DNA from: Antiquaquibacter metalliresistens
GTDB lineage: Bacteria; Actinomycetota; Actinomycetes; Actinomycetales; Microbacteriaceae
Length of the DNA stretch: 64,000 nt
Direction: 5' to 3'
Assembly (NCBI RefSeq): GCF_029211225.1
Contig: NZ_JARGEM010000001.1
Coordinates: forward strand, 62,001 to 126,000
Position numbers and translations under genes: made by a program. Position 1 is the stretch's first letter. Each line of letters starts with the position of its first letter. Below are positions 53,179-62,100 of the stretch, in pieces. The notes under the pieces are model-generated. The model made no database searches. It was not told the DNA's origin and was given only the letters and a program-made list of their open reading frames with translations.

Positions 53179-53222
53179 TCGAATGGGCAGCGGTACCCAT
53201 TCGCAACGGGTGCCGACGCCGC

Positions 53223-53228
53223 TACCGT
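53223..53228 (+). promoter_or_regulatory. Leaderless -10 element (TACCGT) of the WXG-like gene
   Basis: TACCGT ends 6 nt before the ATG at 53235; there is no ribosome site. Confidence 0.45.
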
Positions 53229-53234
53229 TTGACC

Positions 53235-53507
53235 ATGACGGATCTTCAGGTCGCGGGCGACTTCATGGACGAGCTCGCCACGAAGCTCTCCGAGCTCGCC
53301 GGACTCGTCGACCCGCGCGTGGACGGGATCGTGGACTACACGGTCACCGGCTCCGCGACCGTCGAGATGGCCGCGGAGACCGCCCAGGCATCCCAGCGGG
53401 CCCGCGCCACGCAAGTGAGCGCCAACCTGCTCGCCCTCTCGCAGCACGCGAGCGCCGCCCGCATTCAGATGGATGCCGTCGACGAGTCGCTCGCCACGGG
53501 CGGTTGA
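53235..53507 (+). CDS. Small helical protein, possible WXG100-like partner
   Basis: A 90-residue helical protein (DLQVAGDFMDELATKLSELA, then TAQASQRARATQVSANLLAL). Size, helix content and position before a large WXG-bearing protein resemble ESX/type VII secreted partners and their relatives, but no WXG motif is present, so the class is a guess. The ATG at 53235 is preferred over TTG at 53229. It is followed after 2 nt by the next gene. Confidence 0.6.
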   Translation: MTDLQVAGDFMDELATKLSELAGLVDPRVDGIVDYTVTGSATVEMAAETAQASQRARATQVSANLLALSQHASAARIQMDAVDESLATGG

Positions 53508-53509
53508 CC

Positions 53510-55285
53510 GTGCGCTGGACTCAGGAGGATCCGGGGGTCGGCGACCCGGGGATGCTGCACGGCGTCGCCCGGGTACGCGGCGCGCTCGCCACCGAGCTCG
53601 ACCTCGTGGTCGTGCGCCTCGACGCGCTCGCGACCCAACTGCCCGAGGCCTGGCAGGGCACCTCGGGGGCCGCTCACCTCGGGCAGTACTCGCTCATGCG
53701 CGCCGACCTGGATGCGCTCGCCTCCTCCTATCGCGCACAGCAGGCCGCGATCGAGACCTACGCGACGGCGCTCGACCGCATCCAAGCGGCGGCGGCACCC
53801 GTAGTCACCGGCATCCGCGGACTCGAGGAGGAGTTGCCGCGCCTGCGCCTGCTCCGCCGCAACCTGAACGTGCCCATCCCCACGCCGCGCGAGTTTTCGG
53901 AGGTACTCGTCGCCGCGCTCGACCCGTGGGACGCCTACACGATCGCGGACTACAGCTACGCACTCCGTCTCGACCAGCAGATCCGCGAGTACCAGGCCGA
54001 GCTCGGCCGCCTGGTCGCCGCCCGCGGCGGCATCGTCGAAGACCGGCGTGCCGCGGATGCCGCCGCGACATCCGCGCTCGGCTCGCGCGCCGCGGTGGGG
54101 GCGCTGACCGCGGACACCATCCGCGATTCGCGCACCTGGGATCGGGACGAACTGATGCGACAGCTCTCGACCATGACGGCGTCGGAGCGGGCGCTGCTGC
54201 TCGCGCAGCACCCGGAGCTCTTCGCGCTGCTCACCGCCGACAACGACGACCCCGACAACATGCTCGCGGTCGCGGCGGTGTGGGGCAGCATCGGACCGGC
54301 GGGCGGCGCGCTGCTCGCGAAGACCTACCCGCAGCTCGTCGGCAACCTCGAGGGCGCCGCCTACCGCGACCGCGCGAGCGCGAACACGACGATGATCACC
54401 GCGGAGCGCAGCGCACTCAAGGCCTACGTGCGTGAGCATCCCGACGATCAGGACGCGGTCGAGCGGTTGAAGGCGATCGACGCGATCCTCACCACCCTCG
54501 GCACCGGCACGGGCACCCCGCCGCGCTCGCTCATCAGCCTCGACCTGGGCGATCCGGTGCTGGCCGCGATCTCGTTCGGCGACGTCGACACCGCCGACAT
54601 CACCTCGTTCCTCGTACCCGGCATGAACACGACGGCCGCATCGATGCCCGACTGGGGCGGCTCGGCCCTCGACTTCTACAACGAGCAACTGCTGGTGATG
54701 CGGGAGGCCGGTCTCACCGGAACCATCGCGACGATCGCCTGGATCGGCTACGAGACGCCGACCGAGCTCACAGTGAAGGACGCCGATCTCGCGATCGCCG
54801 GTGCGGCCCGTCTCGGCCAGGCCCTCGACGGGTTCAACGCCGCGACCCTCTTCACCAATCAGAGCGCCCAGCTCAACGTGTTCGCCCACTCCTACGGTTC
54901 GACGACGGCCATGTACACGCTCAAGGAGGATCACGGGGTCGACACCTTCGCGGCCTTCGGATCGGCGGGCTGGATCGTCGACGACCGGGTGCTGCACGGC
55001 GATGACGGCAGCGGCGACCCGTTCTACGTGGTCGGCGACGGCGGGTTCTGGTACACGGATGCCCCGCTCGACTTCGTCAACGACATCGGCGTCGGGCTCA
55101 GCCAGTTCAGCGCGAACCCCCGGCTCATGCCCGACGTGCTGCCGGGCACGCAGGAGTTCGGCAGCGACGGCGGCGACGACTTCGAGGCCTCCTACCACCA
55201 CGGCGACTACCTGCGCGTGGGCACCGAGGCGTTGCGCAACATGGCCATCCTGGCCGCTGGGCGTCCGGACTTGCTGATTGAATAG
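53510..55285 (+). CDS. DUF1023 alpha/beta hydrolase with N-terminal WXG-like helical domain
   Basis: A 591-residue protein. The N-terminal 150 residues are helical with a WQG turn (W48) as in WXG100-superfamily domains. A DUF1023 hydrolase domain occupies the C-terminal half: the elbow NVFAHSYGSTTAMYTL places the nucleophile at S461, and an HHGDY near the end could carry the catalytic histidine. Such fusions are known around actinobacterial ESX-type systems and are thought to be secreted or surface enzymes. The start may be GTG 53510 or TTG 53504. No ESX machinery gene is nearby. Confidence 0.82.
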   Translation: MRWTQEDPGVGDPGMLHGVARVRGALATELDLVVVRLDALATQLPEAWQGTSGAAHLGQYSLMRADLDALASSYRAQQAAIETYATALDRIQAAAAPVVTGIRGLEEELPRLRLLRRNLNVPIPTPREFSEVLVAALDPWDAYTIADYSYALRLDQQIREYQAELGRLVAARGGIVEDRRAADAAATSALGSRAAVGALTADTIRDSRTWDRDELMRQLSTMTASERALLLAQHPELFALLTADNDDPDNMLAVAAVWGSIGPAGGALLAKTYPQLVGNLEGAAYRDRASANTTMITAERSALKAYVREHPDDQDAVERLKAIDAILTTLGTGTGTPPRSLISLDLGDPVLAAISFGDVDTADITSFLVPGMNTTAASMPDWGGSALDFYNEQLLVMREAGLTGTIATIAWIGYETPTELTVKDADLAIAGAARLGQALDGFNAATLFTNQSAQLNVFAHSYGSTTAMYTLKEDHGVDTFAAFGSAGWIVDDRVLHGDDGSGDPFYVVGDGGFWYTDAPLDFVNDIGVGLSQFSANPRLMPDVLPGTQEFGSDGGDDFEASYHHGDYLRVGTEALRNMAILAAGRPDLLIE

Positions 55286-55289
55286 CGCG

Positions 55290-55775
55290 ATGAGCACACG
55301 GGGGGTGGCGCTGCTGGCGATCGGGGCGCTGCTGCTGACCGGATGCTCGACGGGCGGATCGGAGAACACGATGACTCCCCAGGAGGCGCAGGCGGAACTG
55401 CTCGCCCTGCTCGACGAGACCCAGGAGGCGGTCGGCGGTCAGTGGCAGGTGGACGACGATGACACTCCGCTGCAGTGCGTTCTGCCGTCGGGCGAGACCG
55501 GCGTGACGTTCTCCGGCTATCGCCGCTCATCGCAACCCGTCGAGGGGGGTGCCGACGCTGTCGCGGAGTTCTGGGAGTCCAAGGGCTTCACCGTCGAGCC
55601 GCGGCCCGAGCTGGCCGGGCTCGACGACGTCTTCGTGCGCTTTCCCGGCGAGCCGGACCGCTACCTGCACTTCGCGATCGGCGACAACGTGATGGCGCTC
55701 GAGGGCTGGGGCCGCTGCGTTCCCGGCAACGCCCTCGATGAGATCGAGCGCATCCAGCGGGAATCGGCCGACTAG
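55290..55775 (+). CDS. Small secreted lipoprotein
   Basis: A 161-residue protein with a signal peptide and lipobox LLLTGC, hence anchored outside. The mature part is acidic with two cysteines that could pair. No family was recognised. It starts 4 nt after the DUF1023 gene and belongs to the same operon. A TTG at 55278 is a weaker start. Its last four bases (CTAG) overlap the stop of the convergent gene. Confidence 0.75.
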   Translation: MSTRGVALLAIGALLLTGCSTGGSENTMTPQEAQAELLALLDETQEAVGGQWQVDDDDTPLQCVLPSGETGVTFSGYRRSSQPVEGGADAVAEFWESKGFTVEPRPELAGLDDVFVRFPGEPDRYLHFAIGDNVMALEGWGRCVPGNALDEIERIQRESAD

Positions 55776-61147: not shown

Positions 61148-62100
61148 GAGCCATCCAGCAAGACCGCTACGGCGACGTCGACGTGCTCGAGTTGCGCGAC
61201 GTGCCCATCCCGAGCCCCGGCGACGACGAGGTCGTCGTCGAGGTTCGCGCTGCGAGCATCAACCCAGCCGATTGGCACCTCATGACCGGCCTGCCGACCA
61301 TGGTGCGCCCATTCCTCGGGCTCCGCGGTCCGCGCCAGGCGACGCGCGGCGTGGATGTCGCGGGCGTCGTGCACGCCGTCGGCACGAAGGTCACGCACCT
61401 GAGCCCCGGCGACGAGGTACTGGGCACGGCGCGCGGATCCTTCGCCGACTACGCCGTGGCGCGAGCCGACCGTCTCGTGCCCAAGCCCGCCGGGCTGGGG
61501 TGGGTGCAGGCGGCGAGTCTGCCGCTGGCGGGCAGCGCGGCCGTGCACGCGGTGCGTGGCGCGGAGGTGGCATCCGGCGATCGTGTGCTGGTGATCGGCG
61601 CGGCCGGCGGCATCGGCTCGATCGTGGTGCAGCTCGCGGTCGCCGCCGGTGCGACCGTCACGGGTGTGTGCAGCACGAGCAAGACCGACCTGGTGCGCTC
61701 GCTGGGCGCGAGTCGGGTGATCGACTACACGCGCGAGACGCTCGACGGCGTCTACGACGCGATCATCGACACCGCCGGTGGGCGTGCGCTCGACCTGCTC
61801 CGCGCGCACCTGACGGCCACGGGGGCCCTCGTGCTGGTCGGCGCCGAGGGCGGCGGGCGCGTGCTCGGCGGACAACGCCGCCAGTTCGCCGCGATGCTCC
61901 GCGACCCGTTCACGAAGCAGCGACTGCGGTCGGTGATCTCCTCGGAGACGCCGGAGGTGCTGCAGCAGTTGCTCGAGGCGGTGTCGGCAGGCGACCTGAG
62001 GGTGGTGATCGACCACGAACTGCCGCTCGATTCGGTGGCCGACGGCATCCGCTACCTCGCCGAGGGTCGTGCCCGCGGCAAGGTGGTCGTCGTGCCCTAG
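61144..62100 (+). CDS. Zinc-free MDR oxidoreductase (quinone reductase-like)
   Basis: A 318-residue NAD(P)H-dependent enzyme of the medium-chain dehydrogenase/reductase group. The catalytic domain has ASINPADWHLMTG and GVDVAGVV, without structural-zinc cysteines; the nucleotide-binding fold has VLVIGAAGGIGSIVVQLAVA. The family reduces quinones or enones. It is the last gene of the membrane protein-XRE operon. Its final CTAG is shared with the stop of convergent lspA. Confidence 0.88.
   Translation: MRAIQQDRYGDVDVLELRDVPIPSPGDDEVVVEVRAASINPADWHLMTGLPTMVRPFLGLRGPRQATRGVDVAGVVHAVGTKVTHLSPGDEVLGTARGSFADYAVARADRLVPKPAGLGWVQAASLPLAGSAAVHAVRGAEVASGDRVLVIGAAGGIGSIVVQLAVAAGATVTGVCSTSKTDLVRSLGASRVIDYTRETLDGVYDAIIDTAGGRALDLLRAHLTATGALVLVGAEGGGRVLGGQRRQFAAMLRDPFTKQRLRSVISSETPEVLQQLLEAVSAGDLRVVIDHELPLDSVADGIRYLAEGRARGKVVVVP

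Follow-up and report, generated by a model that had tools for sequence, protein, structure and literature searches.

What is the function of three tightly packed genes, the second of which encodes a hydrolase with a WXG-like N-terminus and the third a lipoprotein? The question is raised by a stretch of 64,000 nucleotides (nt) from Antiquaquibacter metalliresistens (NZ_JARGEM010000001.1, positions 62,001 to 126,000; hereafter the window), in which a small helical protein (P0001), a DUF1023 hydrolase (P0002) and a lipoprotein (P0003) form one tight operon. The window is part of contig C1 of an assembly of 3.07 Mb in 34 contigs, 97.7% complete. An initial annotation had regarded the three genes as an ESX-linked effector or envelope-enzyme set. 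Sequence comparison with relatives indicates that they are probably a self-contained toxin-immunity cassette, in which an esterase or lipase toxin exported by a type VII secretion system (T7SS) would act outside the membrane of the target. P0003 is probably the immunity protein, a role that goes beyond the earlier reading. Direct support is given by the gene order and its conservation, the insertion of the three genes, the linkage of lipoprotein and DUF1023 genes, tandem arrays, orphan hydrolase ends, and the finding that catalytic half and lipoprotein are replaced together and diverge together.

Linkage and joint exchange of lipoprotein and catalytic half

The DUF1023 hydrolases were divided into long and short ones at 190 residues before the core, a border chosen by the analyst. 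Lipoproteins were searched with a profile of 13 seed sequences, refined with 101, some of the seeds coming from loci that were later counted. A family lipoprotein is located directly downstream of 69 of the 89 long hydrolases and of 15 of the 102 short ones, and tandem family lipoproteins occur at 31/88 long versus 1/57 short hydrolases. Left out of these counts are hydrolase matches weaker than 1e-30 or not reaching model position 540, repeats identical in the last 150 residues, and loci with fewer than 600 bases downstream; an earlier count with the unrefined profile (55/63 long, 12/55 short) is superseded. Since some of the counted loci had supplied profile seeds, a genome-wide search is the fairer test. 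Among 60 genomes, one per genus, a profile (A4) built from the window and the named set of records (the best 80 of 509) gave 36 lipoprotein matches in 14 genomes, and 35 of them adjoin a DUF1023 gene, positions being compared by hand; the search is insensitive, having missed divergent lipoproteins present in genomes G014, G035, G047 and G051. The remaining match is a solitary lipoprotein gene (L258, 4024-4575) with no hydrolase among its neighbours, in a genome that has three cassettes.

Locus L220 of Microbacteriaceae bacterium PS02333 has an array of six family lipoproteins in a row; in the focal cassette there is just one lipoprotein gene. Of 136 hydrolase-linked copies, 117 carry a lipobox, 13 another hydrophobic segment and six neither. 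At L084 (6478-9330) four consecutive lipoprotein-family open reading frames (ORFs) have a hydrophobic segment replacing the lipobox, and two of them hold two domain copies per frame. In Saccharopolyspora (L162, L190, L196, L221) two or three DUF1023 genes lie close together, and at L221 a weak lipoprotein-family match (3e-5) is located between two of them.

The three genes are a unit inserted beside padR. Elsewhere in the genus, 26 genomes were compared, and none contains a full-length relative of P0002, as no match there starts before query residue 184. In 10 of these genomes a padR orthologue (65-76% identity) marks the site of the cassette, and P0001-P0003 are absent beside it in all 10, which identifies them as an inserted three-gene unit. 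The gene directly behind padR is the gene found at 55772 in the window in eight of the relatives, an APC transporter in one and an unrelated permease-like gene in one.

Allele replacement limited to the catalytic half and the lipoprotein was found between locus L083 of Okibacterium fritillariae and locus L098 of Leifsonia sp. ALI-44-B. The DNA identity is 92% in the upstream flank, 96% in the partner gene and 96% in hydrolase codons 1-330, falls to 68% in the rest of the hydrolase and 54% in the lipoprotein, and returns to 93% in the flank directly after the lipoprotein. In another pair of cassettes from these two genomes the values are 83%, 61% and 59%, with flanks at 90-92%; a third pair is milder, with 93%, 85% and 82%. 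The replacement is less sharp in L093/L099. Over 69 cassettes, lipoprotein distances correlate with those of the catalytic half (Spearman coefficient 0.50, partial coefficient 0.49) and much less with those of the N-terminal half (0.21, partial 0.16); the two halves of one hydrolase correlate at 0.14. At L137 (1-6000) the full-length gene is followed by three C-terminal hydrolase fragments, 63-76% identical to its end, which alternate with four lipoprotein genes; at L138 (3500-8240) one such fragment (88% identical) lies with lipoprotein genes behind the full-length gene.

The relatives thus combine a constant N-terminus with a putative toxin part exchanged together with the adjacent lipoprotein gene (L083/L098, L093/L099, and the distances of the 69 cassettes), and have tandem or orphan copies of the presumed immunity gene as well as orphan hydrolase ends. 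At the level of sequence, joint exchange, orphan catalytic ends and tandem lipoproteins are the signature of a polymorphic toxin-immunity system. The exchange is that of relatives' cassettes, the focal copy having no close orthologue among the genomes searched. Several comparisons weigh against a toxin-immunity cassette of this kind. L144/L145 are even, at 91% throughout, with no swap; L101/L100 show it in mild form; in L123/L128 and L128/L129 the whole cassette is divergent; the N-terminus is the less conserved part in L103/L091 and L082/L102, and in L131/L124 it is not more conserved than the rest. In addition, 20 of the 89 long hydrolases have no profile-matched lipoprotein, although at three of these loci (L123, L128, L129) a divergent one is present by eye.

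A further difficulty is raised by the short hydrolases. A hydrophobic segment precedes the core in 66 of 102 short versus 10 of 89 long proteins, and many of the 15 short hydrolases with a family lipoprotein have such a hydrophobic start, so that the hydrolase-lipoprotein pair is not confined to type VII secretion. The genome under study has an example on contig C30 (L081, 5933-7775), where a second DUF1023 gene, of the short type and hydrophobic at its N-terminus, is followed 74 nt later by a single family lipoprotein. The short genes may represent an ancestral pairing of enzyme and inhibitor, or else a toxin exported by the Sec route. They are also the main support for another explanation, in which an exported esterase serves envelope remodelling or nutrition and has the lipoprotein as a chaperone, activator or membrane anchor of its own; divergence of the lipoprotein in step with the catalytic half would suit a chaperone too. 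This explanation is nevertheless unlikely, as tandem divergent lipoproteins, far commoner behind long hydrolases, orphan ends with lipoproteins of their own, the solitary L258 gene and allele swapping are usual for immunity genes and unusual for chaperones.

Protein features and the predicted mode of action

P0002 belongs to Abhydrolase_8 (PF06259, DUF1023), a family defined by fold, and its membership rests on sequence: it scores 81.8 bits (6e-23) against a cut-off of 20.5 and has the conserved residues S461, D521 and H564. The AlphaFold2 model (42 sequences; mean predicted local distance difference test score, pLDDT, 89.4; predicted template modelling score 0.80) consists of two helices (13-47 and 51-119) whose connecting turn contains W48-Q-G50, further helices, and an alpha/beta-hydrolase region reaching to residue 591. 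The helical WQG domain of the initial annotation is thereby recovered; of its GHSYG elbow at S461, the serine is in place and the elbow reads AHSYG. In fold, P0002 comes nearest to esterases, lipases, thioesterases and a glycosylphosphatidylinositol inositol-deacylase, none of which stands out (best Z 14.7, rank 50 Z 12.5); the rows of this comparison cover residues 334-591, and the N-terminal fold was hardly probed there. The protein has no cysteine.

The N-terminus of P0002 matches WXG100 (9e-4), WXG100_2 (0.0028) and PPE, all below the Pfam cut-offs, which weakens the case for type VII export, and residues 13-91 weakly match the solved structure of an EsxA (3zbh, E 0.0034). The small protein had been called WXG-like; this label suits the N-terminus of P0002 instead. 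P0001 lacks a WXG motif (W.G) and matches no Pfam family at E 1 or better, and membership in WXG100 was rejected on these grounds. EspC (PF10824) was likewise rejected for the partner proteins, with only sub-threshold matches in the partners of two relatives. Taken as a co-oriented ORF of 75-135 amino acids ending at the hydrolase start, a partner gene is present at 57 of 89 long and 2 of 101 short hydrolases, and thus accompanies the WXG-like N-terminus; one further locus repeats the window, and counting it gives 58/90. With this repeat included, partner and lipoprotein occur together at 46 of the 90 long loci, and nine have neither. The motif [YF]xxx[DE] lies within the last 45 residues of 34 of the 57 partners, while shuffles of the same residues give 9.4 (standard deviation 2.5). 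P0001 reads MDAVD near its C-terminus where relatives have this motif, a degenerate form and, as such, a point against the proposed reading. In model and sequence, P0002 thus has a helical WXG/LXG-like domain next to a small helical partner gene, as type VII substrates do.

P0003 has two cysteines (63 and 143) beyond that of the lipobox. Its model is a compact, confident domain (mean pLDDT 87.9), closest in fold to LppA of Mycobacterium tuberculosis (2v7s; Z 11.3, root-mean-square deviation 3.1, 118 aligned), followed by a DUF4853 protein (Z 9.5) and then by matches of Z 6.9 or less. Pfam has no known family for it, and a sequence profile search of the PDB gave three matches, all E 0.19 or worse. 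LppA is accordingly the best structural match of P0003 with no match at the sequence level.

For the cassette we infer type VII export, toxicity, binding and substrate as follows. P0001 and the helical N-terminus of P0002 would associate in a PE/PPE- or Lap-like manner and so direct the hydrolase to the FHA-EccC-type T7SS of the cell. The exported DUF1023 domain, with its predicted Ser461-Asp521-His564 triad, would hydrolyse an ester in the envelope of a neighbour cell; the fold class makes lipid esters, and among them a membrane lipid, the likeliest substrate. P0003, lipid-anchored on the outer face of the producer's membrane, would bind and block the matching catalytic half, as the genetics suggest; since this anchor puts the antidote outside the membrane, the toxin should act there as well. 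The first half of P0002 would then be the shared export part and the second half the toxin, exchanged together with its antidote. On this reading, each catalytic half should be inhibited by the lipoprotein of its own cassette but escape a swapped one.

The target might instead be a eukaryotic host or a host lipid, with hydrolase and partner still exported by type VII secretion. Mycobacterial PE/PPE hydrolases have the same anatomy, a helical export domain joined to a lipase. A host-directed enzyme, however, would have no need for a dedicated self-protecting lipoprotein, and lipoprotein arrays and allele swapping indicate bacterial rivals, which makes this alternative the most improbable of all.

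Type VII machinery and export

No ESX machinery had been seen near the cassette, and this is correct: FtsK/SpoIIIE and WXG100 matches above cut-off are located on contigs C12, C23, C29 and C32, the window on C1. The possibility that the whole genome lacks such machinery, under which the initial annotation would have given up its ESX reading, was rejected, since an EccC/EssC-like ATPase and WXG100 proteins are present on these other contigs. Contig C29 encodes an FHA-EccC/EssC-like ATPase in a frame of 1596 amino acids (EssC model 1e-153, EccCa 6e-94, EccCb 6e-94, each below the NCBIfam cut-off). Before it lies the gene of a transglutaminase-core protein, and after it come the genes of a WXG100 protein (2.6e-14) and then of proteins of 92 and 771 amino acids; the latter has a weak T7SS-signal match, and the two are a WXG-like pair arranged like P0001 and P0002. 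A MoxR-like gene is also found at this locus (L078, 338000-354000). EccB (PF05108) gave no match in the genome at E up to 1, and the machinery is therefore not a canonical ESX system (T7SSa). The ESX-linked effector reading is supported indirectly by the ATPase, the WXG100 proteins, the linkage and motif enrichment of the partner and the enrichment of EccC, and fails on the canonical type of the machinery.

The available part of a review of T7SS variants describes T7SSd as the sole new subtype in Actinomycetota (PMC11217815), and no mention of Microbacteri-, MoxR or transglutaminase was found in that part. For this reason an additional T7SS variant, one of Microbacteriaceae, may be encoded on C29.

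Within the family of A. metalliresistens, at least 156 of 299 genomes have an EccC match of 1e-80 or better, a threshold set after seeing the list, with counts made by hand. Among the matches listed, EccC is present in 36 of 39 long-hydrolase genomes versus 120 of the other 260 (Fisher p 2e-8, a guide only, as the genomes are related to one another). The 39 genomes are those with fetched loci; the long frames of G031, G260 and G309, whose best EccC E-values are 8.5e-83, 1.1e-110 and 8.4e-64, were left out. In three genomes of one genus (G014, G289, G316) a cassette adjoins an EccC gene (L091, L103, L105).

These data also bear on the view that the proteins are not type VII substrates, the helical N-terminus having instead a structural or regulatory function in an enzyme that is exported, or employed, in some other way. 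The sub-threshold WXG matches would agree with it, as would the location of the machinery away from the cassette in the focal genome and the three long-hydrolase genomes (G177, G189, G221) that have no strong EccC match and so speak against type VII export. The partner gene, its YxxxD/E-type motif, the association with EccC and the three cassettes adjoining EccC genes argue the other way, and this view is very unlikely.

Relation to described systems and features of the locus

The closest working precedent for a toxin-immunity cassette of this kind is the type VIIb lipase toxin system TslA-TlaA1-TlaA2-TilA of Staphylococcus aureus (PMC10730906). Like the putative cassette here, it combines a lipase-type toxin, which has a Ser-Asp-His triad and a helical domain for export, with small helical partners and lipoprotein immunity in variable copy number; the sequence variability resides mostly in the lipase half, and the cassette can lie within the type VII locus or elsewhere (PMC10730906). 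In contrast to P0002, TslA carries its helical domain at the C-terminus, so that the order is reversed. There are two partners there and one here, in Bacillota and Actinomycetota, respectively. The immunity family there is DUF576, for which none of 27 lipoproteins here gave a Pfam match up to E 1; DUF576 structures were not among the matches listed in the fold comparison of P0003, which is informative neither way. By analogy the cassette would work like TslA/TilA, yet it is not a member of that family, as domain order and lipoprotein family do not agree.

Alpha/beta-hydrolases (Tox-ABhydrolase-1 to 3) have also been predicted as polymorphic toxins, and one lipoprotein immunity protein, Imm65, has been noted (PMC3482391), which resembles the present arrangement; Imm65, however, is a partner of Tox-JAB-1 (PMC3482391). 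That paper was not among the literature matches listed for DUF1023, PF06259 or Abhydrolase_8. No role of DUF1023 in secretion or antagonism was found in the available texts, where it appears as a mutant-table entry, in a fold comparison and in a remark on lids, and a search of the open literature found no paper joining 'DUF1023' and 'type VII secretion'. The lipoproteins LppA and LppB of M. tuberculosis, adjacent in numbering, are reported to be non-essential and diverse, to recombine and to be under selection (PMC4770551), all of which can apply to immunity proteins.

Tentatively, and with considerable doubt, the cassettes could represent an undescribed class of actinobacterial polymorphic type VII toxins, in which a DUF1023 catalytic half and an LppA-fold lipoprotein immunity gene form one exchangeable module, and a PE/EspC-like partner loads it into a reduced FHA-EccC system without EccB; the fast-evolving mycobacterial LppA/LppB may share the immunity lineage. 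The more general toxin-immunity reading would offer a role for the DUF1023 hydrolases, so far the subject of fold-level or incidental mentions in the available literature, and for a lipoprotein family lacking a Pfam name. Under that reading, lipase-type type VII antagonism with lipoprotein immunity would extend from Bacillota to Actinomycetota, with the domains in forward order.

The features of the cassette are listed in Table 1. The three ORFs of the initial annotation, with the spacing of 2 nt between P0001 and P0002 and 4 nt between P0002 and P0003, were all found where it had placed them.

Table 1. Features of the P0001-P0003 cassette, numbered from the first base of the window (aa, amino acids).
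Feature	Position	Strand	Remarks
P0001, 90-aa helical partner	53235..53507	+	ATG start 53235, stop 53507; probable co-secretion partner of P0002
P0002, 591-aa WXG-like/DUF1023 hydrolase, probable toxin	53510..55285	+	GTG start 53510, stop 55285
Helical hairpin of P0002, residues 13-119, W48-Q-G50 in turn	53546..53866	+	predicted
Alpha/beta-hydrolase domain of P0002, about residues 335-591	54512..55282	+	predicted
Ser461, predicted nucleophile (AHSYG)	54890..54892	+	invariant in 42 aligned proteins
Asp521, predicted triad acid	55070..55072	+	conserved in at least 90% of 42 aligned proteins
His564, predicted triad base	55199..55201	+	invariant in 42 aligned proteins
P0003, 161-aa lipoprotein, probable immunity protein	55290..55775	+	ATG start 55290, stop 55775; conserved Cys63 and Cys143
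Cys19 of P0003 lipobox LLTGC	55344..55346	+	invariant in 27 aligned proteins

The G+C content at third codon positions is 89-92% in all three genes, which is what real genes should show. The base composition of the cassette (70.2%) does not differ from that of its flanks (68.9% and 69.4%). A consensus scan found neither a promoter nor a terminator; by eye, a promoter-like TTCGCA (53200-53205) and TACCGT (53223-53228), 17 nt apart, lie just 5' of the P0001 ATG, a position that would suit a leaderless transcript.
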